Assembly: GCF_005080745.1 (NCBI RefSeq)
Contig: NZ_CP033004.1
Location: 454,192-469,005 of the forward strand
DNA from: Buchnera aphidicola (Melaphis rhois)
Lineage (GTDB): Bacteria; Pseudomonadota; Gammaproteobacteria; Enterobacterales; Enterobacteriaceae
Direction: 5' to 3'
Length of the DNA stretch: 14,814 bases
Part shown: in pieces, positions 1,293 through 14,814 of the stretch
How the letters are laid out: each line of letters opens with the position of its first letter
How positions within the stretch are numbered: position 1 is the first letter of the stretch
Translations under genes and position numbers: made by a program
The notes under the pieces: generated by a model
What the model saw: only the letters and a program-made list of their open reading frames with translations
What the model was told of the DNA's origin: nothing
Database searches by the model: none

Positions 1293-2846
1293 ATGGCTAT
1301 TATTCCTATGTTTATCGTTAAAGCTTTATCATCTATTCTTGTAGGTAGTATAGGAATATTGTCTTTTTCTCCTCAAAATTATTGGCCATGTTCTATATTT
1401 TCCTTTATGGGATTACAAATTATTTCCAATGGATTATCTCACTACAAATCAGGAATTATCGGATTTCTATGGGGTGTAGGTTTTTTTGGTACGGGCATTT
1501 ATTGGATTTATATTAGCATTCACTCTGTTAATATTTTATCATTTTCAAATAATGTTTTGTTAACTATTATTTTAATAGTATATCTTTCTAGTTATCCGGC
1601 ATTATTCTGTATATGTTTAAATTATATATATAAAAATGTGTCATTAATTAAGTTCTTAATATTATCTCCATCATTGTGGCACGTTATTGAATATTTTAGA
1701 GAAAATATTCTCACTGGATTTCCATGGCTAGAACTTGGTTATAGCCAAATTGACGGACCTTTAAAAAGCATTGCTCCTATATTAGGAATAAAAGGAATTA
1801 CTTTTATACTAATAATAATTGCTAATCTTTTTTCGCTATCAATTCTGTATAGAAAATATTCGTATTGTATTTACGCTTTTATTATATTAATGTTCTCTTA
1901 CGCTCTATCTACAATATCATGGTATTCAGAAAATAACTTAAGAAATATTAATATTGCTCTAATACAAACTAATACTCCTGAAACGTTGAATTGGAATATT
2001 AAAAATACTTTTAATGTTTTAAATATTTATTCCAAATTAATAAAAAAAATCTCTAAAAAAAATACTATAATAATATTACCTGAATCTGCTATTCCTAACT
2101 CATTGTTAAATGAAAAAAATATATTAAATACTTTTAAGAATATTCTAAAAAGAAAAAATGCTTCTTTAGTCATTGGATATATAAAATCATATTATAACAA
2201 ACATAAACAAATCTCTTTCTGCAATGCAATCGCAGTATTACAAAAAAATAAAAATAATATTTATAATTACCAGATAGAATACAAAAAACATCACTTAGTA
2301 CCATTTAGTGAAAATATACCTTATAAAAAAATTAAAAAAATATTATCATATATTTTTAATTTTGCTATTTTGCCTTTTGAATCAGGACCATACATACAAT
2401 CTCCTATAAAAATTAAAAATTTCTATTTTTCTGCATCAATTTGTTATGAAATCATTTTTGGTAAACAAATACTAGATAACTTTTATCCAAATGTAGATTT
2501 TTTATTATCTCTAGCTAACGACGTCTGGTTTAAGAACTCTTCTGAACCATGGCAACACTTTCAAATGGCTAGAATGAGGGCGTTAGAACTTGGTAGGCCA
2601 TTAATACATAGTTCTAATAATGGAATAACTGCAATAATTAACGCTAATGGAACAATAAACACGATATTACCTCAGTTCAAAAAGTTAATATTAGAAAAAA
2701 ACATAAAATCCACGTCAGGCGTTACTCCTTACGCAAAATTTGGACTCATTCCAATTTGGACAATCACAATAATATGTATAATTTATTCTATAAATAAATT
2801 AAAAATTATGACAAGTAAAAAAAATGAAAAAAGAATATATAGCTAA
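1293..2846 (+). CDS. lnt: Apolipoprotein N-acyltransferase
   Basis: A 517-residue inner-membrane protein (E. coli Lnt 512). It adds the third acyl chain to the N-terminal cysteine of lipoproteins, using phospholipid as donor. Residues 1-210 are a run of hydrophobic membrane segments with conserved ENILTGFPWLELGYSQ. From about 218 comes the periplasmic nitrilase-like domain (NIALIQTN). The catalytic triad is visible: Glu264 in LPESAIP, Lys332 in YKKHHLVPFSE and Cys384 in SICYEI, matching E. coli E267, K335 and C387. NDVWFKNSSEPWQHFQMARMRALE and GRPLIHSSNNG are also family blocks. A last membrane segment lies at about 485-500. It is 46 bases after corC, in the E. coli order, and overlaps leuS by 23 bases, so translational coupling is plausible. 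All active residues are kept, so it is probably functional. Confidence 0.97.
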   Translation: MAIIPMFIVKALSSILVGSIGILSFSPQNYWPCSIFSFMGLQIISNGLSHYKSGIIGFLWGVGFFGTGIYWIYISIHSVNILSFSNNVLLTIILIVYLSSYPALFCICLNYIYKNVSLIKFLILSPSLWHVIEYFRENILTGFPWLELGYSQIDGPLKSIAPILGIKGITFILIIIANLFSLSILYRKYSYCIYAFIILMFSYALSTISWYSENNLRNINIALIQTNTPETLNWNIKNTFNVLNIYSKLIKKISKKNTIIILPESAIPNSLLNEKNILNTFKNILKRKNASLVIGYIKSYYNKHKQISFCNAIAVLQKNKNNIYNYQIEYKKHHLVPFSENIPYKKIKKILSYIFNFAILPFESGPYIQSPIKIKNFYFSASICYEIIFGKQILDNFYPNVDFLLSLANDVWFKNSSEPWQHFQMARMRALELGRPLIHSSNNGITAIINANGTINTILPQFKKLILEKNIKSTSGVTPYAKFGLIPIWTITIICIIYSINKLKIMTSKKNEKRIYS

Positions 2847-5615: not shown

Positions 5616-6616
5616 ATGAAAATTATTTATTCAGAACAACTATTCCCTACTTTCTTTAATGGTTTAAGTCCATATTATATCCTTATCGGGGACGATACTT
5701 TTTTTGTTCAAGAAAGCAAAAAAATTATATTTTCTCTAGCTAAAAAAAACGGATTTTCTAAATTGTCAACAAAAATCATAGAGCACAATATTAGTATCAA
5801 GCATTTATCTTATTATTTCAAAATGAATGATTTATTTTCAAAAAAAAAATTATTATTTTAAACTTACCTAAACAAATTCTTACAAAAGAAATTCAAAAAC
5901 AACTAGTTTATTTATCTAATTTTATAAATCCTGATATACTTTTAATTATTCACAAAAACGTAAAAGAAAATATATCAAATAATGTTTGGTTTAATATATT
6001 TCAATTAAAAGGTACAATTATATATTGTAACTCTCTTATAAAACAAAAAACAAATATCTGGATAAACAATAAAATATATGATTCAAAAATAAATATCCAC
6101 AAAAATGCAAAAGAACTATTACTGAAATTATATTCAGGAAACATATTATTCTTATACAATACAATAAATATGTTAATGTTAATTTGGCCGAAACGCCTAA
6201 TAACTATTGAAAAAATTAAACCGTTTATTAATAATTCAACTCTTTTTACACCAGAAGAGTGGATTGATTCAATGTTAATCGGTGATTTAAATAAATCTAT
6301 AAAAATTCTAAATAACTTATTTATTCAAAACTATAACCAAATAGTATTGATACGAAGTTTACAGTATAATTTGATTACTATACTAATGATACAACGTAAA
6401 ATTTTTCCTAATATTTACGATATCTTAAAGATGAGAAAAACTTCAAAAAGTAGATATCTAACACTAATATATTTTTCACGTTGCGAAAATATTGAAAAAA
6501 TTAATAAATCCATTACATTATTAACAAAAATAGAAATTAATATTAAAAAAAAATACGAAACGTCTATATGGAACCAATTAAAAATTTTATCCTGCATAAT
6601 TAGTAAAAAAAACTAG
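5616..6616 (+). CDS. holA: DNA polymerase III delta subunit, frame broken at an A10 tract
   Basis: HolA (delta) opens the beta sliding clamp within the clamp loader. The first part (from ATG 5616, MKIIYSEQL against E. coli MIRLYPEQL) runs to about residue 76 and then stops at 5859-5861, giving only 81 residues. From the A10 tract at 5840-5849 the -1 frame stays open to the TAG at 6614-6616 and continues the family: NLPKQILTKEI, then DILLIIHKN, SGNILFLYNTINMLMLIWP, LFTPEEWIDSMLIGD, LIRSLQYNL and SITLLTKIEINIKKKY. One extra A would give LFSKKKIIILNLP, aligning without a gap to E. coli LFASRQTLLLLLP, and a 333-residue protein (E. coli 343). The TTG at 5577 and ATG at 5601 give longer starts that E. 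coli does not support. The gene is 16-28 bases ahead of nadD. It is either a pseudogene, rescued by slippage, or a sequencing error. Confidence 0.92.
5840..5849 (+). repeat. A10 tract at the holA frameshift
   Basis: A run of ten A lies exactly where the holA frame changes by -1. Eleven A (or eight) would join the two parts. It is a candidate site for RNA polymerase slippage. Confidence 0.9.
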
Positions 6617-6644
6617 TATAAATTTTAATCTAATGAATAAAAAA

Positions 6645-7282
6645 ATGACATCGTTATATGCAGTATTAGGCGGCACCTTTGATCCTATTCACTACGGGCA
6701 CACTGCTACATCAGAAATACTAGCAGAAAAACTTAATTTAAAAAAAATTATTCTATTACCTACATATAATAGTTTATGCCACAATCAATCAATTATCTCA
6801 GTTCAACATAAAGTTAAAATGATAAAATTAGCAATAAAAAATAAACCATTATTTAAAATAAATTACTTAGAAATAAAAAAAAAATACCTTATACTATAGA
6901 TACATTAAAAGAACTTAGAAAAAACATAGGCTATAAACGACCATTAGGATTTATTATTGGATTAGATAATTTAGTTACCCTAAATCAATGGCATAAATGG
7001 AAAGAGTTACTAATATATTGTCATTTAATAGTATTACCACGAACTCTACATAAAAAACATATAAAAAATAATATTTTAAAAGCTTGGGTTAAAAACAAAA
7101 CGACCAGAAATTATCTTTTATTACATAGTAACTCTAACGGTTATATTTTTTTTTCTAATACACCCTATGTAAATATTTCTTCTACAAAAATTCGACTCTT
7201 GTTAAAAAATAATTTTTCTTGCCCAAATCTGTTGCCTATCTCTGTAATCCATTATATAAAAAAATATAATTTGTATATTTAA
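6645..7282 (+). CDS. nadD: Nicotinate-mononucleotide adenylyltransferase, frame broken at an A10 tract
   Basis: NadD joins nicotinate mononucleotide and ATP to form deamido-NAD, a late and normally essential step of NAD synthesis. The first part holds [11 protein letters not shown], the nucleotide-binding HxGH motif of this superfamily, and [12 protein letters not shown]; it ends prematurely at 6897-6899. From the A10 tract at 6875-6884 the -1 frame runs to the TAA at 7280-7282 with [49 protein letters not shown] (the ISxTxIR motif) and a terminal YIKKYNLY matching E. coli YINQQGLY. With one extra A the product would be 212 residues, against 213 in E. coli. The start at 6645 ([14 protein letters not shown]) matches E. 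coli MKSLQALFGGTFDP; the upstream ATG at 6633 adds four residues. Neither has a clear ribosome site. A T9 run at 7146-7154 is in frame. Confidence 0.92.
6875..6884 (+). repeat. A10 tract at the nadD frameshift
   Basis: Ten A occur exactly where nadD passes from frame 0 to the -1 frame. One more A gives [15 protein letters not shown], which lines up with E. coli ELKRNAPSYTAQTLKE with a single-residue gap. Confidence 0.9.
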
Positions 7283-7326
7283 TATTTATATCAAACAACT
7301 TATTGAAAATAAAATATTACTATAAT

Positions 7327-7605
7327 ATGAAAATTAAAACGTATTCACATCATTCATTATTAGATTTAAGAAATTTGAATTGTCCTGAACCTATTATGCT
7401 GTTAAGAAAAAAAGTAAGAGAAATACATACTGGGCAAACATTATTAATATTAGCAGACGATCCATCTACTATCAGAGATATTCCAAATTTTTGCAGATTC
7501 ATGAATCATATGCTACTAACATATACCATTAATAAACTACCTTACCAATATCTAATTAAAAAAGGAATTATATCTGAACATAATTCTACAACCCAATCAG
7601 ATTAA
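7327..7605 (+). CDS. tusA: Sulfur carrier protein TusA
   Basis: TusA takes persulfide sulfur from the cysteine desulfurase IscS and passes it through TusBCD and TusE to MnmA, for the 2-thio group of tRNA wobble uridine (Glu, Gln and Lys tRNAs). It is a 92-residue cytosolic protein (E. coli 81). The active cysteine is in NLNCPEPIM, the CPxP motif, at residue 19 as in E. coli when the ATG at 7327 is used; that is why I prefer it to the TTG at 7303, which adds eight residues. [19 protein letters not shown] and [10 protein letters not shown] match the E. coli core and end, with an extra tail of about 13 residues. It follows nadD by 44 bases, a neighbour it does not have in E. coli, and converges on asd. 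Confidence 0.93.
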
Positions 7606-7684
7606 TTAAAAAAAATCATAAAATATGTTTAAATATATTTAAAATTTTTTTAATACATATAAATAACATTTTTAAAACTAAAAA

Positions 7685-7719
7685 CTAACAATTATTAATT
7701 TATATTTAATAATTGTTAG
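7685..7719. terminator. 14-bp stem-loop between convergent tusA and asd
   Basis: A perfect inverted repeat: CTAACAATTATTAA at 7685-7698 pairs with TTAATAATTGTTAG at 7706-7719, around a 7-base loop. Read on the minus strand it is followed by TTTTTAGTTTT, a U-rich tail suited to ending asd. Read on the plus strand the tail is AATAATATTAAT, less typical. It lies 66 bases after the asd stop and 79 after the tusA stop, where a bidirectional terminator is expected. Only two G-C pairs support the stem, so strength is uncertain. Confidence 0.65.
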
Positions 7720-7777
7720 AATAATATTAATAACGCTAACATTATATAAACAATGAACTTCAAAAAGTATTCGATAA

Positions 7778-8893
7778 TTATAATTTAATGAGTATTTTTA
7801 ACATGCGTCGTAACGGTTCTGAAGCCCCCCATAACAATTGATCTCCGACAGTAAATGCAGATATATATTTTTTCCCAATATTTAATTTTCTTATCCTTCC
7901 TACGGGAGTTAATAACGTTCCAGTTACTGCAGCAGGAGTTAAATTATTAATAGTAAAATCAATCTCATTAGGAATTACTCGTGTCCAACGATTGTGATGA
8001 GATATAATACTTTCAATATCAAACATAGAAATATCTTTTTTTAACTTAATTACAAACGACTGACTATGACATCTCAAAGATCCAACTCGAACACATAATC
8101 CATCTATTACAATATTTTTCTTAGATGACAATATTTTATTTGTTTCAGCTTGAATTTTCCATTCTTCTCTACTTTGTCCATTTTTAACTTTAACATCAAT
8201 CCAAGGTATCAAACTACCTGCTAATGGGACACAAAAATAATTAGTAGGAAAAGAATCAGCCGAACTGATTCTACTGACTTTTTTCTCTATATCTAAAATA
8301 GATTTAGATGGATTATTTATATCATTAGAAATCCCGTTACAAATTGAGCTCATTTGAGTTAATAATTCAATCATATGTAATGCACCACTTCCAGATGCTG
8401 CTTGATAAGTGGAAACAGTCATCCAATCAATTAAATCATGAGAAAACAGTCCTCCTAATGACATTAACATTAAACTAACAGTACAATTTCCACCTATAAA
8501 AGTTTTAATGCCATTATCTATAGACCTATTAATTACTGACAAATTTACTGGATCTAATACAATTACCGCTTCACTTGTCATTCTTAAACAAGATGCAGCA
8601 TCAATCCAAAATCCTTTCCAACCACTATGTCTCAATTTATAATATATATCATTAGTATAATCACTTCCTTGACACGTAATAATGATATCTAATACTTTTA
8701 ATGCATCAATATCATAAGCATCTTTTAAACTGCCATAATAATTTCCATTAACAATTGGACCTTTTTGATCAACTTGAGATGTAGAAAAAAAAACTGGATC
8801 AAAATGATAAAAATCATTTTCTTCTTCCATTCTCTGCATTAAAACTGATCCAACCATCCCTCTCCATCCTACTAAACCTACAAGCTTTTTCAT
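7778..8893 (-). CDS. asd: Aspartate-semialdehyde dehydrogenase
   Basis: 371 residues (E. coli 367), the only minus-strand gene here. It reduces aspartyl phosphate with NADPH to aspartate semialdehyde, the branch point for diaminopimelate/lysine and homoserine/threonine. Seen: [15 protein letters not shown], the NADP-binding loop, at 8-22; TCQGSDYTN at 73-81; the active-site Cys137 in [15 protein letters not shown] (E. coli C135); Gln164 in TYQAASG; Arg269 and His276 in [14 protein letters not shown] (E. coli R267 and H274); and [20 protein letters not shown]. Two arginines of E. coli GARHMREL are Leu and Ile here (GALHMIEL), but they are not among the catalytic residues I know. A T9 run in the mRNA is in frame. 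A gene for nutritional amino acids fits a symbiont that feeds its host. It is divergent from yhgN, its neighbour in E. coli too. Confidence 0.98.
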
Positions 8894-9320
8894 TATTTAT
8901 TTTACCAAGTGATGTAAAATTGAAAATAGAAAATTCTAATAATATTAAACATATGTAATTTAAAATAAGTAACTAAAAAAAATATTTTGAATAGGTATAC
9001 ATTTAACTGAACATAACAAAATAATTACAAGTAACTTTACTAATTTTAAAAATTTTAAAATATTAAAAAGTTAAATATATAATTTTATCTTGAGCTAATT
9101 ACCTTATAATTTCATTATAAATAATTTACTTATTTTGTAATATATGTTTAATATATACAAATATATATTAATATATATTATATCTTGCATATTTTAATTA
9201 TTTTAAAAATTAAATTCTGTTTTTTAAAAATTATTCGATAACATTTATAACACAATATTATTATAAATATAATTCTCATATTTTTTTAAATTTATTAAAA
9301 TATTTTAATAAGAGTGAATT
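8894..9320. other. 427-base non-coding region between divergent asd and yhgN
   Basis: Very A+T-rich with no recognised gene, tRNA or small RNA. It must hold both promoters. A TATAAT lies at 9105-9110 and a TATAAA at 9116-9121 on the plus strand, but no -35 box at normal spacing stands out, so I do not call a promoter. Positions 9160-9179 are a perfect 20-bp palindrome that is also two copies of AATATATATT, inside a longer AT-repeat stretch (about 9151-9181). The yhgN ribosome site AAGAG is at 9310-9314. Confidence 0.6.
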
Positions 9321-9914
9321 ATGAACGAAATGATTTCTTCAACTATTTTATTAATTTTGATTATGGATCCATTGGGAAATCTTCCTATATTCATGTCTAT
9401 ATTAAAAAATTTAAAACCAAATCGTCGTCGTATTGTTTTATTACGAGAAATGATAGTGGCATTATTAATAATGTTGTTATTTTTATTCGCAGGCGAAAAT
9501 ATTCTTGTATTTCTAAATTTGAAAACCGAAACAGTTTCTATATCCGGTGGAATAATTTTATTTTTAATAGCAATCAAAATGATTTTTCCTTCTTATAAAT
9601 ATGAAAAAAATACGAAGAAAACCAGAGAAGAACCTTTTTTAGTCCCCTTAGCGATTCCGTTAGTAGCAGGACCATCACTATTAGCTACATTGATATTATT
9701 ATCACATGAATATCTGAATAAAATAGTGTATTTAACTGGATCTCTTTTAATAGCTTGGACTTGTACAGTAATAATTTTATTATCATCCAACATGTTTTTG
9801 AGACTATTTGGTTCTAAAGGAGTAGATGCACTAGAACGATTGATGGGTTTAATTTTAATTATGCTATCCACTCAAATGTTTTTAGATGGCGTAAAATCTT
9901 GGTTTCAAACTTAA
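9321..9914 (+). CDS. yhgN: MarC-family inner membrane protein YhgN
   Basis: 197 residues, the same length as E. coli YhgN, with near-identical blocks: LLILIMDPLGNLPIFMSILK, ETVSISGGIILFLIAIKMIFP, EEPFLVPLAIPLVAGPSLLATL and GVDALERLMGLILIMLSTQMFLDG. It is a polytopic membrane protein with about six hydrophobic segments. The family function is not established; the old antibiotic-resistance link of MarC was withdrawn, and transport is only a guess. An AAGAG ribosome site lies 6 bases before the ATG. The next gene in E. coli, on the other side, is asd, and the pair is kept here in divergent orientation. It appears to be a one-gene unit, since 320 non-coding bases follow. Confidence 0.96.
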   Translation: MNEMISSTILLILIMDPLGNLPIFMSILKNLKPNRRRIVLLREMIVALLIMLLFLFAGENILVFLNLKTETVSISGGIILFLIAIKMIFPSYKYEKNTKKTREEPFLVPLAIPLVAGPSLLATLILLSHEYLNKIVYLTGSLLIAWTCTVIILLSSNMFLRLFGSKGVDALERLMGLILIMLSTQMFLDGVKSWFQT

Positions 9915-10021
9915 ATAACAATATACACAAAACCATTATAAAAATATTCATGTACTTTTAATACATCTTATAATAACGTCATTACTACCTATAAAATTAA
10001 ATATATAAAACATTCTATAAT

Positions 10022-10050
10022 CGAATAACATTCATATAATTGAATATTCG
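10022..10050 (+). terminator. Possible stem-loop after yhgN
   Basis: CGAATA (10022-10027) and TTCA (10031-10034) pair with TGAA (10041-10044) and TATTCG (10045-10050), leaving a 3-base ACA bulge and a TATAAT loop. It is 107 bases after the yhgN stop and has no T-run, so the terminator role is only a guess. Confidence 0.3.
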
Positions 10051-10094
10051 TAATATCAAGTAAAAACAAAATATATGTTCAATTCATTTTGTTA

Positions 10095-10123
10095 TTTACA
10101 TTTGAAATATCAAAATATATATT
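10095..10123 (+). promoter_or_regulatory. Candidate promoter for pgk-fbaA
   Basis: TTTACA (10095-10100) and TATATT (10118-10123) each match the sigma-70 consensus at five of six bases with a 17-base spacer, and lie about 110 bases before the pgk start. Chance matches are common in DNA this A+T-rich. Confidence 0.35.
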
Positions 10124-10160
10124 TATGATTAATGTAATTAACTTTGAACAAAACCATATC

Positions 10161-10202
10161 AATTCTAAAAAATTTTTAAAACTAATTTAATCTTTTAGAA
10201 TT
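10161..10202 (+). promoter_or_regulatory. Stem-loop in the pgk leader
   Basis: A perfect 10-bp inverted repeat: AATTCTAAAA at 10161-10170 and TTTTAGAATT at 10193-10202, with a 22-base loop, followed by TTATTTCTTTA. It lies 33 bases before the pgk start and after the candidate promoter, so it could act as a leader structure or a weak terminator of upstream transcription. It has a single G-C pair per arm, so the stem is weak. Confidence 0.35.
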
Positions 10203-10234
10203 TTATTTCTTTACATATTTTTAATGGTAAAAAC

Positions 10235-11392
10235 ATGCCAATAATAAAAATAACAGATCTAAACCTTTCAAATAAAAGAGTACTTATACGATCAGATTTA
10301 AACGTACCAATACAAAATAAAAAAATCATATCTTATGCTCGAATTAACGCATCGCTTCCAACTATTAAACTAGCATTAAAAAATAATGCAAAAGTTATTG
10401 TTGCTTCACATTTAGGTAGACCAAAAGAAGGTTTTTATGATTCAGAATTGTCATTATTTCCTATCTTTAAATATTTTCAAGAAATATTTAAAAAGTATAA
10501 AGTATACTTTTGCAAAAATTATTTAAATGGTATAGAGACTAAATCAGGTGAATTAACTATATTAGAAAACGTACGATTTAATAAAGGAGAAAAAAACAAT
10601 AATAAACATTTATCTAAAACATATGCCAACTTATGTGATATATTTGTTATGGACGCATTTGGTTCACTACATAGAAATGAATCATCTACTTACGGTCTAT
10701 CAAAATATTCAAAAATCGCCTGTTCTGGACTACTTTTAGAATCAGAACTTACAGCGTTAAAAAAAATTATAAAAAAACCAATTCGACCTATGATTACAAT
10801 CGTTGGGGGTGCAAAAGTATCTACTAAATTCAATTTATTAAAATCACTAGCAAAAATATCGGATACTTTGATAGTAGGGGGAGGTATTGCTAATACTTTT
10901 ATAGCTATTGATAATAATGTTGGAAAATCTCTATACGAACCCAATTTTATTCATCAAGCTAAATTACTACGTGATAACTATAATATTTTTATACCAATAG
11001 ATTCTAAAGTAAGTACTACTTTTAACGAAAATAGTATAGGAATTACTAAAAAAGTTTCTGATATTGATATGAATGAAGAAATCATGGATTTTGGAGAAAA
11101 TACTATAACAAAAATGTTACCAATATTACAACAGGCAAAAACTATTCTTTGGAATGGACCCATCGGGGTATTTGAATTTAAAAATTTTCGAAAAGGGACA
11201 ACGGCTTTAGCACAAACTATTGCAAATAGTAATGCTTTTTCTGTAGCTGGAGGGGGGGATACTTTATCTGTAATAGAAATATTAAATATAACAAGCAAAA
11301 TTTCTTATATATCTACAGGTGGAGGTTCCTTTCTAAAATTTTTAGAACAAGAAGAATTTCCTATAATAAAGTTATTAGAACGTTTTATTTAA
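10235..11392 (+). CDS. pgk: Phosphoglycerate kinase
   Basis: 385 residues (E. coli 387), a cytosolic glycolytic enzyme moving phosphate from 1,3-bisphosphoglycerate to ADP. The N-terminal substrate domain shows RSDLNVP (19-25), SHLGRP (58-63), ENVRFNKGE (111-119) and MDAFGSLHR (139-147). The C-terminal nucleotide domain shows GGAKVSTK (191-198), VGGGIANTF (214-222), WNGPIGVFEF (306-315) and AGGGDT (338-343), and ends with STGGGSFLKFLE. All are the expected family motifs with no gap of note. The start aligns with E. coli (MPIIKITDL against MSVIKMTDL). fbaA follows after 48 bases with no terminator between, so the two are probably one operon, as in E. coli epd-pgk-fbaA. epd itself is missing upstream. 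Confidence 0.98.
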   Translation: MPIIKITDLNLSNKRVLIRSDLNVPIQNKKIISYARINASLPTIKLALKNNAKVIVASHLGRPKEGFYDSELSLFPIFKYFQEIFKKYKVYFCKNYLNGIETKSGELTILENVRFNKGEKNNNKHLSKTYANLCDIFVMDAFGSLHRNESSTYGLSKYSKIACSGLLLESELTALKKIIKKPIRPMITIVGGAKVSTKFNLLKSLAKISDTLIVGGGIANTFIAIDNNVGKSLYEPNFIHQAKLLRDNYNIFIPIDSKVSTTFNENSIGITKKVSDIDMNEEIMDFGENTITKMLPILQQAKTILWNGPIGVFEFKNFRKGTTALAQTIANSNAFSVAGGGDTLSVIEILNITSKISYISTGGGSFLKFLEQEEFPIIKLLERFI

Positions 11393-11440
11393 TAATACAA
11401 TAGCTTTATATATATTAAAATTTTAAATGAGAAATTAACG

Positions 11441-12520
11441 ATGTGTAATATTTCAAAATTTATACAGCCAGGTGTAGTAAACGGAAATGACGCACTAAAA
11501 ATATTTAAAATAGCTAAAGAAAATCTTTTTGCAATACCTTCAATAAACTGCATAGGACATGATTCCATAAATATTGTTCTAGAAACAGCAAGAAAAGTTA
11601 ATAGCCCAGTTGCAATACAATTTTCTTATGGAGGTTCAATTTTTATTGCGGGAAAAGGATTAAAAAAAAATAAAATACATCAACAAGCAGCATTAGGAGC
11701 TATATCAGGTGCTCAACACGTACATTTAATGGCAAAACATTATGAAATTCCTGTAATTTTGCATACTGATCACTGCAATAAAAATATGCTACCTTGGATA
11801 GACGAACTAATAAAAGAAGGAAAACGATACTTCAGAATTAATGATACACCTCTTTTTACTTCACATATGATAGATCTATCACATGAACCACTAGAATTCA
11901 ATTTAAACATTTGCTCAAAATATTTAAAAAAAATTAAAAATATTAATATGATGTTAGAAATAGAACTAGGATGTACTGGAGGAGAAGAAGACGGAATTGA
12001 CAATACGGATATAGATAATTCATTTTTATATACTAAACCAGTCGATGTTAATTTAGCATATGAACGATTATCTCCAATAAGTCCATGTTTTACTATTGCA
12101 GCATCTTTTGGAAATATACACGGAGTATATCGATCAGGAAATGTTCACTTAAAACCTATCATTTTAAAAAATTCACAAAAATATGTTAGAGAAAAACATA
12201 ATTTATCCTTTAATCCATTAAATTTTGTTTTTCATGGGGGATCTGGATCTTCGTTAGAAGATATTCAACAATCTATACAATATGGTGTAGTAAAAATGAA
12301 TGTTGATACTGATGTCCAGTGGGCAGCTTGGAAAGGAATATTAGAATTTTATAAAAAAAACAAAACTTATTTACAAAACCAACTAGGTAATCCGTTAGGA
12401 TCAGACAAACCTAACAAAAAATATTATGATCCAAGAACTTGGATTCGCGCTTCTCAAAAATCAGTAGCACATTACTTACAATACATATTTAAAGTATTAA
12501 ATTCTTATAATACTTTGTAA
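11441..12520 (+). CDS. fbaA: Class II fructose-1,6-bisphosphate aldolase
   Basis: 359 residues, the same length as E. coli FbaA. It is a zinc enzyme that splits fructose-1,6-bisphosphate into glyceraldehyde-3-phosphate and dihydroxyacetone phosphate. Visible active residues, one higher than the usual Met-less numbering: Asp110 and His111 in LHTDHC, Glu175 and Glu182-Glu183 in EIELGCTGGEEDG, His227 in SFGNIHGVY and His265 in FHGGSGSS. QLGNPLG and PNKKYYDPRTW are further family blocks. An A9 tract at 11662-11670 (GLKKNKI) is in frame. The start is supported by alignment; a weak GAGA lies about 8 bases ahead. It is cotranscribed with pgk by spacing, and a terminator follows at 12549-12590. Confidence 0.98.
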   Translation: MCNISKFIQPGVVNGNDALKIFKIAKENLFAIPSINCIGHDSINIVLETARKVNSPVAIQFSYGGSIFIAGKGLKKNKIHQQAALGAISGAQHVHLMAKHYEIPVILHTDHCNKNMLPWIDELIKEGKRYFRINDTPLFTSHMIDLSHEPLEFNLNICSKYLKKIKNINMMLEIELGCTGGEEDGIDNTDIDNSFLYTKPVDVNLAYERLSPISPCFTIAASFGNIHGVYRSGNVHLKPIILKNSQKYVREKHNLSFNPLNFVFHGGSGSSLEDIQQSIQYGVVKMNVDTDVQWAAWKGILEFYKKNKTYLQNQLGNPLGSDKPNKKYYDPRTWIRASQKSVAHYLQYIFKVLNSYNTL

Positions 12521-12548
12521 AACAACTATCACTATCATATACATTTTT

Positions 12549-12590
12549 AAAAAGTTAGAGGAGAACAAATATTATTCTCCCTAATTTTCT
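12549..12590 (+). terminator. Intrinsic terminator of pgk-fbaA
   Basis: TTAGAGGAGAA (12555-12565) pairs with TTCTCCCTAA (12575-12584) with one bulged A. The flanking A-run (12549-12553) can pair with TTTT at 12585-12588, with a bulged G. The loop is CAAATATTA and the stem ends in TTTTCT. It is by far the most G+C-rich stem in the window's intergenic DNA and lies 28 bases after the fbaA stop, so mscS needs its own promoter in 12591-12665. Confidence 0.75.
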
Positions 12591-12665
12591 ATATAAAATA
12601 ACATGAATTGTTACGTTTTTCATCATTAATGTTAATTACATAATACTTTAAAGAACATAAAAAAT

Positions 12666-13517
12666 ATGAAAAAATTAAACGTGGTTAACGATATTAATCA
12701 TGCAGGAAATTGGTTAATCCGAAACCAAGAAATCTTATTAAGTTATTTTATTAATCTCGTATCTGCAACTATGATACTAATAGTAGGTTTTTTTATAGCC
12801 AGAATCAGTTCAAATATTATTAATAGAGTATTAATTACTAGAAATATAGATACTACTGTTTCTGGGTTTTTAGCTGCACTAGTGAGATACATATTTATTA
12901 CATTTGCATTAATAGCTTCATTAGGATGTATTGGAGTTCAAACTACTTCTGTAATTGCCATATTAGGTGCAGCTGGAATGGCTATTGGATTAGCTTTACA
13001 AGGTTCTTTATCTAATTTTGCAGCAGGAGTTTTATTAGTAATATTAAGACCACTACGTACTGGAGAATATGTAAATTTAGAAAATATATCAGGAACAGTG
13101 TTGAGTATTCATATATTTTATACTACTCTTCGAACCTTAGACGGTAAAATTGTTGTCATACCGAATGGTAAAATTATATCAGGTAATATAATCAATTATT
13201 CTAGAGAAAAAATAAGAAGAAATGAATTTATTATTAGTGTTTCGTATGATTCTGATATTGATTTAGTGATTAAAGTATTAAAAAATGTTGTAGAAAACGA
13301 AGATAGAGTGTTAAAAGACAAAGATATTATTGTTGGATTAAGTGAACTAGCACCATCTTCATTAAATTTTATCGTACGCTGCTGGAGTAGCACTGATGAA
13401 TTAAATATAGTATATTGGGATCTAATGGCACAATTTAAAAAGGCTTTAGATTTAAATAATATTGAGATTCCTTATCCTCAACTTAAAATACATGGCTACA
13501 GAAAAATAACAAAATAA
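12666..13517 (+). CDS. mscS: Small-conductance mechanosensitive channel MscS
   Basis: 283 residues (E. coli 286), a homoheptameric inner-membrane channel that releases solutes on osmotic downshock. Three membrane segments lie at about 28-46, 68-88 and 95-127. The pore helix reads [25 protein letters not shown], keeping Leu109 and the hinge glycines 113 and 121. The first gate residue, Leu105 in E. coli, is Met here. The cytosolic vestibule follows with [28 protein letters not shown] (two parts: beta domain and PNG), [13 protein letters not shown] and [12 protein letters not shown]. An AAAGAAC site precedes the start, and [11 protein letters not shown] aligns with E. coli MEDLNVVDSIN. It follows fbaA as in E. 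coli, but after a terminator, so it is transcribed on its own or with recC, which is 32 bases on. Confidence 0.97.
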
Positions 13518-13549
13518 AACAATTATCAATACTAATTTAATGAAAAACT

Positions 13550-14814
13550 ATGCTTATACTATATAAATCTTACAACTTAAACTTACTCGTAGAGAAAGCA
13601 TGTTCTATTTTTATCACTAATCCACTATCTGATCCATTAGAAAACGAAATATTTATTACTCCTAATAAACAAACAGATCATTGGATAAAAATTTTTATAA
13701 CTAAAAAATATTCTATAATTTCTAATATTAAATTTCTTCGATTGAACAAATTTTTTTGGAAAATATTTCAACGTATTAACACTAATTGCTATTCTAACAT
13801 AGAATTTGAAAAATATTACTTGACATGGAAAATAATGAATATCAAAGATATTAAAAATTTAACTAATGTTATCAGCAAAAACAAATTAAAATCGGAGGAA
13901 CTATTTGAAATAGCATCTTTTTTATCAAAATGCTTTGAAAAATATTTATTATACCGTCCAGATTGGATTCAAACATGGGAAAATAATCCAAAATATCATA
14001 AGAATACTGATCCATTAGTAAAAAGTTATGAACTATTATGGGCTACTATTATAAGCAATATGAAAAATAAAAATCAAATAACATGGAATTACTCAAATCT
14101 ACTTTTCCTTCTACAAGATGTAATAACACACAAAAAATTAAATATAAACCAATTTCCTTCTAGAATTTTTATTTTTGGAAATGTTTTTTTAACACCATAT
14201 AATATAATTATGTTAAATAGTATTAGTAAATTATGTTCAATACATTTTTTTTACGTTACTCCTTATCAAAACGAAGAACAAATGTTGTTAAATCAAATTA
14301 AACTTAAAAAACATAAATTAACTATGATTAAAAAAAATATATCATATTTTTTTAATGAAACAGAAAAATACAAACAACTTTTAGACAATACTATAAATAA
14401 AAAAAACAACATTAATGATACTTTACTATGGAATAAATATAGATACGAACAATATCTATTATTAAGTTTAATAAATAAAAAAGAAATAAATATATTTAAT
14501 ATAAAAAAACCAATTTGCTTGCTTCAAAAAATACAAAGAAACATAATCAAAACTAATTTTTATAAAATATGGAATAACAATAAAAAAAAAATTATGATAA
14601 AAATAAAGAAATAATATGTGTAAATGATCACTCTATTTCTATACATGTATGTAACACAATAAAAAGAGAAATTGAAATATTATATGACAATTTATTAAAT
14701 ATACTTAACGATAATCATGATATTTCGTTTCATGATATTTTAGTAATCAGTACAAATATAAATTTATACACTCCATTTATTAATTCCATATTCAATTCTA
14801 TAAATTCTAAACAC
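13550..14814 (+). CDS. recC: Exodeoxyribonuclease V subunit RecC, 5' part, frame broken at an A10 tract
   Basis: RecC joins RecB and RecD in the helicase-nuclease that processes DNA double-strand ends and reads Chi sites. The start MLILYKSYNLN matches E. coli MLRVYHSNRLD. Further matches are EKYYLTWKIM, CFEKYLLYRPDWIQTWE, FPSRIFIFGNVFLTP and LWNKYRYEQYLLLS. The first frame ends at 14612-14614 (354 residues). From the A10 tract at 14582-14591 the -1 frame carries on to the window edge: DKNKEIICVNDHSISIHVCN matches the E. coli stretch ending SSISFHVCH, followed by REIEILYDNLL, HDILVISTNINLYTPFINSIF. One added A joins them. About 420 of roughly 1,100 residues are in view. Buchnera is known to keep recBCD without recA, so an end-degrading rather than recombination role is possible. 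Whether this copy is functional cannot be told. Confidence 0.93.
14582..14591 (+). repeat. A10 tract at the recC frameshift
   Basis: A run of ten A at the point where recC shifts by -1. Eleven A would read NKKKNYDKNKEIICVND and restore the RecC frame. Confidence 0.9.

Follow-up and report, generated by a model that had tools for sequence, protein, structure and literature searches.

In the Buchnera of Melaphis rhois and its relatives of the Rhus-gall-aphid group, at least four genes (nadD, pyrB, der and ftsI) carry a -1 frame offset at a long run of A, kept across deeply diverged lineages while the gene beyond the run stays, as sequence comparison indicates, under purifying selection. These genes are very probably recoded by the cell, +1 transcript slippage being the likeliest means; that the DNA itself carries the -1 offsets, and that the kept ones are read by +1 polymerase slippage on the A run, is judged likely. 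The mechanism is already known from Buchnera and Blochmannia, and what is new is the set of long-kept offsets of the same sign.

The window, i.e. the whole stretch of 14,814 nucleotides that was analysed, contains only three runs of A or T of ten or more, all of them A10 (5840-5849, 6875-6884 and 14582-14591), and inside each of them a -1 frame change occurs, in holA, nadD and recC. The zero frame closes 3, 4 or 6 codons past the run, and the homologous -1 frame is open beyond. The pieces were identified as HolA, NadD and RecC through NCBIfam, except for the upstream piece of HolA, recognised by tblastn against HolA of G006 (residues 6-96). All features lie on the + strand. The upstream frame of holA (5616..5861) ends with TAA 3 codons past the run at 5840..5849; its start, ATG 5616, was chosen by eye, the ORF list opening the same frame at TTG 5577. 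The downstream frame (5831..6616; DNA polymerase III delta) matches TIGR01128 (E 1.8e-24, profile 59-312 of 316). In nadD, the upstream frame (6633..6899) ends with TAG, carries an 11-residue motif and matches TIGR00482 (E 1.4e-19, profile 1-75 of 194), the run lies at 6875..6884, and the downstream frame (6857..7282), bearing an ISSTKIR motif, matches PRK00071 (E 1.8e-36, profile 83-215 of 219). Exactly two tblastn pieces were obtained for each of holA and nadD, overlapping around the run, with no further break. For recC, the upstream frame (13550..14614; PRK11069, E 7.5e-35, profile 1-356 of 1122) meets, at the run at 14582..14591, a downstream frame that extends from 14584 to the window end at 14814 (PRK11069, E 1.8e-16, profile 361-430); a second A10 further along the gene stays in frame.

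An earlier note on this DNA had placed a -1 offset at a ten-A tract in each of the three genes and had seen no other run of that length; the open reading frames with their homologous downstream frames support the former, and a run scan the latter. The five runs of nine that it gave as in frame are so, yet its list left out an A9 antisense to asd (8785-8793) and a T9 within the downstream frame of nadD (7146..7154), both in frame. Its treatment of the three genes as alike holds for the -1 sign and the A10 run but not for their history: the nadD offset is ancient, that of holA is shared with G001 alone, and in none of the ten other genomes is recC broken at this position.

The three cases belong to a larger class. 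The genome holds 69 runs of at least ten (81 overlapping matches merged), and run lengths comprise 227 A9, 60 A10, 6 A11 and 3 A12. Sense runs of at least ten A in genes or long open frames number 43, with 30 in frame, 12 at -1 and one at +1/-2, the 13 frame changes all falling in recognised genes; the other 26 runs are intergenic, at gene ends, T-sense (three in frame) or unclassified. The in-frame class was assigned mechanically and without a homology check, as a stop-free frame of at least 100 codons with at least 15 on each side of the run, and five of the 30 have fewer than 30 codons ahead and could precede the true start. The scan itself returned 32, from which the recB and der runs were subtracted, where the downstream frame spans the run and yet the gene is broken there. 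Entries such as the starts of rplK, holB, fliP, rpsQ and leuS were discarded by eye as neighbouring-gene overlaps. For A9 runs (44% of the genome covered), 70 are in frame, 30 unclassified and three flagged, namely a repeat of the der break, a neighbouring-gene overlap and one candidate -1. Breaks are thus enriched at runs of at least ten (13/43 vs 1/71 at A9, p = 9e-6), and their sign is biased (12/13 are -1, p = 0.003), so the preference for -1 seen by the earlier note extends to the whole genome. Its length threshold of about ten does not hold: of the runs of at least ten inside genes, roughly two thirds are in frame, and some runs of nine break, such as a T9 in its own lolD, an A9 in pyrB of G008 and an A9 in ftsI of G001.

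The source genome is compared here with ten others, nine of the 11 being of the Rhus-gall-aphid group and deeply diverged (pairwise identity 0.71-0.94 over seven intact proteins). The A10 run of nadD, its phase and the -1 offset are identical in eight of these nine, the ninth (G002) having an intact gene with an interrupted run. The offset of pyrB is found in 9/9 (A10, except A11 in G004 and A9 in G008), as is that of der (A10, except A11 in the source genome and A12 in G002), and the first site of ftsI is at -1 in 7/9 (A10, except A9 in G001). In the source genome ftsI has two offsets, so this gene is not otherwise intact. The comparison of tract lengths among relatives that the earlier note had proposed thus gives an A10 fixed in all eight offset nadD genes and a recC site confined to the source genome. 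In all four genes the offset would already have existed in, or near, the group's ancestor.

G003 and G006 share all four offsets, and between them downstream dN/dS is 0.276 for nadD, 0.074 for ftsI, 0.099 for pyrB and 0.291 for der, against 0.012-0.194 for seven intact genes of the window; parts of holA and recC, in frame in both genomes, reach 0.19-0.28. The downstream parts are also conserved (0.871 for pyrB). These values indicate that the downstream parts of all four genes are under purifying selection while offset. In the downstream frames, no start codon is placed alike in all species. The first ATG, GTG or TTG of nadD in the source genome lies 104 codons past the run, and that of pyrB 59-157 codons past it in six of nine genomes; a TTG near the run exists in some species (pyrB codon 2 in G004 and 4 in G008; nadD codon 6 in G004 and 9 in G005). 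Internal re-initiation or gene fission of pyrB and nadD was judged unlikely, for there is no common start, the first is usually deep in conserved sequence and a nearby TTG occurs in few species. Offset, conservation, constraint and the absence of commonly placed internal starts are directly established; the shared offset, the lack of a common start and the downstream constraint argue together that the four genes are recoded. Furthermore, Lys triplets are all AAA at 32/33 offset sites vs 29/42 in intact genes (p = 0.002).

How such offsets might arise and endure can be outlined. In a symbiont genome rich in AT and with a decayed mutS, long A runs would acquire -1 offsets through slippage during replication. 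RNA polymerase would then slip back on the run and give a fraction of the transcripts one more A. Those mRNAs would specify the complete protein and the others a truncated form; as the extra-A transcripts would give some full-length protein, offset and downstream constraint could persist together. That the polymerase rather than the ribosome slips, and what share of protein is full-length, we infer. Rescue of poly(A) frameshifts by transcriptional slippage has been described for Buchnera and Blochmannia (Tamas et al. 2008, as cited in PMC5009743, PMC3017870 and PMC3164680), 12-50% of transcripts being corrected where measured (PMC5009743). Likewise, one study counted 157 insertions vs 70 deletions for transcripts of Buchnera (PMC5574713); homopolymer runs account for 151 of the insertions, which increase with run length, and the direction of the excess fits +1 slippage correcting -1 offsets. 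Against this, the same study detected no frame-restoring transcription error, and its per-base Buchnera rates (1.30e-5 insertions, 1.75e-5 deletions) lack the excess of the counts. Other points against slippage are that dN/dS of nadD and der exceeds that of all seven intact window genes, that a full-length ftsI product of the source genome would need two slips, and that A11 runs are far fewer than A10 runs, a pattern that undercalling too would produce. The A9 of G008 pyrB should slip less. For nadD, slippage is the best reading of the offset, run and downstream constraint kept in 8/9 genomes; the mixture of full and truncated proteins that the earlier note had proposed for all three window genes applies best there, the offsets of holA and recC being lineage-restricted and the function of these two genes putative.

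A further possibility, entertained only tentatively, is that the -1 offset of pyrB, der and nadD is itself kept by selection, as a programmed dose control, gated by slippage, that became fixed in the group's ancestor. In its favour, pyrB and der are offset in 9/9 genomes with the frame unchanged despite run lengths from A9 to A12, although in other genes the frame at comparable runs changes along terminal branches. A tree model with single rates of gain and loss is however not clearly rejected (variance p = 0.028; at least two sites offset in each of the nine genomes, p = 0.31; at least three sites in at least eight genomes, p = 0.60), so that the offset may persist without being favoured.

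It is rather unlikely that the full-length proteins are made, wholly or in part, by ribosomes shifting to -1 at the A runs. The known slippery heptamer A_AAA_AAA is present in the zero frame and the sign is as needed, yet any run of at least nine A contains this heptamer, which therefore does not discriminate. Downstream folds are no better than those of shuffles (z -0.38 for holA, 1.10 for nadD, -0.13 for recC and 0.65 for pyrB), and no Shine-Dalgarno-like element was seen by eye upstream in the nadD, pyrB, der and ftsI alignments. The programmed -1 frameshifting of dnaX is alike in its A-rich site and direction, whereas no stimulators were found at the present runs. Moreover, it is transcript slippage that has been measured at such runs in Buchnera (PMC5574713, PMC5009743).

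Miscalling of homopolymers, by which the true runs would be one longer and the genes intact, is improbable overall. The fall from 60 A10 to 6 A11 in this assembly, the near uniformity of the -1 sign and the fact that many affected genes are needed ones speak for it. On the other side, eight of the ten relatives were matched to a study using Illumina 2x150 reads and SPAdes; in G007, one of the genomes of that study, 30 sense runs of at least ten A are in frame, none is split and six are unclassified (a mechanical count, in stretches chosen by the breaks of the source genome), its ftsI shifting by +1/-2 where a T10 run lies. The four ancient genes are offset by one at A9, A10, A11 and A12 alike, and the in-frame A11 and A12 runs of the source genome argue in the same direction. 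P0008, a protein of 256 aa from another source, has the length and start that a pyrB call cut short at the earliest start codon past the run would give, and no protein of at least 300 aa with more than 77% identity to PyrB of the source genome is among the 120 listed out of 6,267. The comparison thus makes miscalling unlikely for nadD, with the breaks confined to the source genome less protected from it.

That the genes are dead and being lost is no more probable than miscalling. Breaks in recC, recB, nadK, pncB, holA and the second site of ftsI are lineage-restricted; recC is broken at other sites in G004, G005 and G010 and recB is broken in G003, G004, G006 and G008 (ORF lists); and 42 of 69 breaks of Aphidinae Buchnera are scored as single-genome inactivations (PMC3164680). 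Some of the offset genes can also be lost, nadD and pncB not being found in the stretches examined of G007 and G009 (genome-wide for nadD of G009), nor pyrB genome-wide in either. Nevertheless, the downstream parts of nadD, pyrB, der and ftsI were constrained after the offset arose, and the offset is common to deep lineages, which bears out the earlier note in its view that this is not random gene death; that the breaks are real is probable. In holA and recC identity does not drop beyond the run, although a recent break would give the same picture. A truly dead gene, mutS of the source genome, looks different, with seven scattered pieces, six of them with stops. Least probable is an in-frame minority of run lengths among the chromosome copies of the polyploid Buchnera supplying the protein, as A runs are slip-prone but drift among copies would not keep the assembled nadD run at one length in 8/8 offset genes; the same fixed A10 (one assembly per species) argues against a phase-variable contingency gene.

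The slippage reading leaves holA and recC as putative younger cases of the same event, which may be starting toward rescue or toward loss. The -1 of holA at A10 is shared with G001, the other 9/11 genomes having a single frame, five of them with an A10 run in the same region; mean identity to eight relatives is 0.545 downstream vs 0.540 upstream. At the recC site none of the ten relatives is broken, and downstream identity to eight relatives averages 0.697.

The present case resembles the system of Tamas et al. 2008 in that genes otherwise intact, some of them cell-wall genes, are offset by a single base at a long A run; there RNA was measured, whereas here DNA alone reveals four genes offset in 7-9 of nine genomes with one sign. 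Homopolymeric frameshifts number 8-18 per genome in six Aphidinae Buchnera, one in the Buchnera of Baizongia pistaciae and three in that of Cinara cedri (PMC3164680); murF is repeatedly struck there and in the present genomes, but those breaks are mostly of single genomes and scored as inactivations, whereas nadD, pyrB and der are offset throughout a host group. Blochmannia vafer has eight genes offset at A/T runs, some shared among species, with no rate increase in four that were tested (PMC3017870); other genes and another host are concerned, with three Blochmannia species compared. In the literature searched, no mention was found of Buchnera paired with nadD (whole words), nor of Buchnera, pyrB and frameshift together with Rhus gall, and a plasmid collection gave no match.

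Offsets kept this long are rarely seen. A-run frameshifts of symbionts are commonly scored as recent inactivations (PMC3164680), and the four genes here have remained offset while a host group radiated. Among the long-offset genes under downstream selection are NadD, an enzyme of the NAD pathway, and Der, a ribosome-assembly GTPase essential in E. coli. Gene calling renders such genes as short hypothetical proteins or truncated enzymes, and metabolic reconstructions can err. The set also offers a natural, replicated test of how much transcript slippage a cell tolerates and whether offsets can turn permanent.

A few further genes touch this set. The frames of murF and murG vary in both directions among genomes, which places them outside the ancient class; ftsW was left out, its 29-residue upstream piece having no match in 7/10 relatives, and murE was not counted as a split gene, its upstream part being unreadable in every frame. 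In the mechanical scan, a flagellar gene at genome position 78723 has a candidate A9 break.

The three ten-A runs at which the earlier note placed a -1 offset (a change of frame inside the run), namely in holA (window 5840-5849), nadD (6875-6884) and recC (14582-14591), are borne out, and the window holds no further run of ten. The identities of the three genes were confirmed with NCBIfam; the window genes, the others named by eye, follow the Buchnera order, ybeY, corC, lnt, leuS, holA, nadD, tusA, asd, yhgN, pgk, fba, mscS and recC. The list of nine-base runs missed two, both also in frame. The chromosome (616,452 bases) contains 69 A or T runs of at least ten; the stretches around all of them were fetched, which with the window amounts to 44% of the genome, runs shorter than ten being scanned only inside this part. 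Thirteen of the 69 are frame changes within recognised genes: twelve at -1, in fliN (whose upstream piece had no match in the family search), nadK (A11), murG, ftsI (two), pncB, pyrB, holA, nadD, recC, recB and der (A11), and one at +1 (or -2), in murF, a marked bias in sign (12/13, p = 0.003). By a mechanical count, 30 other runs of at least ten leave the frame unbroken, within stop-free stretches of at least 100 codons (32 by script, less the recB and der runs). The supposed length threshold of ten therefore fails in the genome-wide tally: breaks cluster at runs of at least ten, but are not the rule there. Besides, lolD (genome position 319006) is offset by -1 at a T9 run, the LolD profile being matched at 20-64 before the run and 64-220 after it.

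Twelve broken sites, fliN left out, were compared with ten other Buchnera genomes, judged to be those of Meitanaphis elongallis (G001), Nurudea yanoniella (G002), Kaburagia rhusicola ensigallis (G003), Floraphis choui (G004), Nurudea shiraii (G005), Meitanaphis flavogallis (G006), Chaetogeoica yunlongensis (G007), Schlechtendalia peitan (G008), Baizongia pistaciae (G009) and a further one (G010). In a phylogeny built from seven intact proteins, G007 groups with G009, and G010 is sister to G008 (support 100 each), while the deep splits, including the position of the present genome and of the root, have weak support (35-42). All genomes except G007 and G009 are regarded here as the Rhus-gall-aphid group; seven of the nine are named Rhus gall aphid symbionts, the present genome and G010 being included by tree position only.

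Within this group pyrB and der are offset by -1 in nine of nine genomes, nadD in eight (G002 is intact) and ftsI, at its first site, in seven. The latter site is intact in G002, G008 and G009, and ftsI of G007 shifts by +1/-2 where it has a T10 run; nadD was not found in G007 or G009. Judging from the genome comparison, these four sites form an ancient class. Among 40 genomes searched, der open frames measure 401-436 aa in the group versus 445-566 aa in G007, G009 and the other 29, with one internal stop each in the matches of G009 and G015, another genome of the search. Likewise, pyrB, matched at E 1e-40 in 32 of 45 genomes, is open for 278-295 aa in the nine group genomes versus 312-392 aa in the other 23 (one with a stop). 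A NadD match turned up in 124 of 149 genomes sampled across the family, among which only the present one and G009 represent Buchnera. The two-piece pattern occurred in the present genome only, the exceptions being a 49%-complete genome with two abutting pieces and a poor match with stops.

Other offsets are young or variable. The holA offset is shared with G001 and that of pncB with G010; recC and recB at the present sites, as well as the second ftsI site, are offset in the present genome only, recC and recB being broken at other sites too in several relatives. nadK is -1 here and +1/-2 in G002, murG is -1 here and in G002 and G010 and +1/-2 in G008, and murF is offset in six of the nine group genomes, in both directions. 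In recC of G005 (locus L126, 14272-14301), A11 and A16 runs lie a short way apart near a frame break. The two ftsI offsets of the present genome (genome positions 240041 and 240948) are about 900 bases apart, so that a full-length product would need two slips.

Homopolymer undercalling may lie behind the breaks seen in the present genome only, and could cause the steep drop from A10 to A11 runs in its assembly (60 to 6). However, the genomes G001 to G008 were assembled with SPAdes from Illumina 2x150 reads, as stated in PMC11188193, and the ancient offsets occur on runs of 9, 10, 11 and 12. Moreover, in stretches chosen by the present breaks, sense A runs of at least ten number 30 in frame, none split and 6 unclassified in G007, and 17, none and 2 in G009. 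A protein search with the NadD downstream frame (the gene part after the run) returned 7 proteins: a single full-length one of the host group, from N. yanoniella (212 aa), pieces of 108-128 aa labelled hypothetical from M. flavogallis, N. shiraii, M. microgallis and K. rhusicola rhusicola, a fragment of the present genome, and Serratia symbiotica NadD. For PyrB, the best 120 of 6,267 matches included no full-length protein above 77% identity.

As read from sequence, the ancient genes must be recoded, for their downstream frames have no start-codon position common to the species and yet are conserved. The first ATG/GTG/TTG after the pyrB run is at codon 59 in the present genome, and at 157, 117, 22, 2, 89, 124, 4 and 104 in G001, G002, G003, G004, G005, G006, G008 and G010; for nadD it is at 104 here, and at 31, 40, 6, 9, 40, 59 and 58 in G001, G003, G004, G005, G006, G008 and G010. 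Set against eight relatives, the downstream part in the present genome has a mean identity of 0.871 for pyrB, 0.769 for ftsI, 0.653 for nadD and 0.624 for der, compared with 0.679-0.892 for the seven intact proteins. Between G003 and G006, which both carry all four offsets and are near enough to each other for this measure (dS mostly about 0.2), downstream dN/dS is 0.099 (pyrB), 0.074 (ftsI), 0.276 (nadD) and 0.291 (der), versus 0.012-0.194 for seven intact genes and 0.19-0.28 for the holA and recC parts, which neither genome has offset; nadD and der thus evolve more rapidly than the intact genes sampled, yet at nowhere near the neutral rate. Lysine codons in the run are AAA at 32 of the 33 offset sites, all but ftsI of G001, versus 29 of 42 lysine triplets from intact genes (p = 0.002, with overlapping triplets included and kinship not corrected for).

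One extra base in the transcript would restore the frame, as would equally a -1 slip of the ribosome; no RNA structure was found downstream of the runs in four regions checked. Transcript slippage is favoured, since it has been measured: in one symbiont of an aphid and one of an ant, 12-50% of transcripts are corrected (PMC5009743), and PMC3164680 cites functional correction for the Buchnera of Rhopalosiphum padi. Along the same line, Buchnera RNA showed 157 insertions versus 70 deletions, with 151 insertions within homopolymer runs and increasing with run length, although that paper (PMC5574713) states that no case of a restored frame was seen, and the per-base rates it prints lack the insertion excess.

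In a two-state model of the 12 sites, conditional on the present genome being offset, offsets are lost at 1.5 and gained at 0.42 per substitution per site. Two site classes improve the fit (2dlnL 5.4 for three extra parameters; 7.0 without murF), and one-class simulations reach the observed among-site spread in 2.8% of cases. Given this fit and the frames that were either restored or kept throughout in G002 (nadD, ftsI) and G008 (ftsI), the kept offsets are most aptly called tolerated and rescued; a testable reading is that they may be favoured. That some offsets are common to several species without decay is already stated in PMC3017870, and holA, nadD and recC add to them. In the portions of the literature searched, no description of the conserved nadD, pyrB, der and ftsI set in Rhus-gall-aphid Buchnera was found, and the main text of PMC11188193, on eight of the relatives, contains none of pseudogene, nadD, holA or homopolymer.

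As to other genes, mutS, outside the window, is truly decayed in the present genome (seven pieces, six with stops). It lies above the family cut-off in G002, G007, G008, G009 and G010, is in pieces in G006 and has no match in G001, G003, G004 and G005; the ancient offsets are also found in G010, where mutS is retained, as it is in G008, whose ftsI is in frame. Three enzymes from nicotinate to NADP, pncB (genome position 375880), nadD (461066) and nadK (198980), are all offset in the present genome, where nadE has a single open frame. Neither pncB nor nadD turned up in the stretches fetched from G007 and G009, two genomes in which the only nadE matches fall below the family's cut-off. The N-terminal part of murE (upstream of genome position 239223, minus strand) is unreadable in every frame, the remainder being open. 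Lastly, lnt (window 1293-2846) is intact here, in a corC-leuS gap of 1577 bases versus about 740-1170, without an ORF of lnt length, in eight of the ten relatives; the gap of G002 holds one such ORF and that of G007 two shorter ones.
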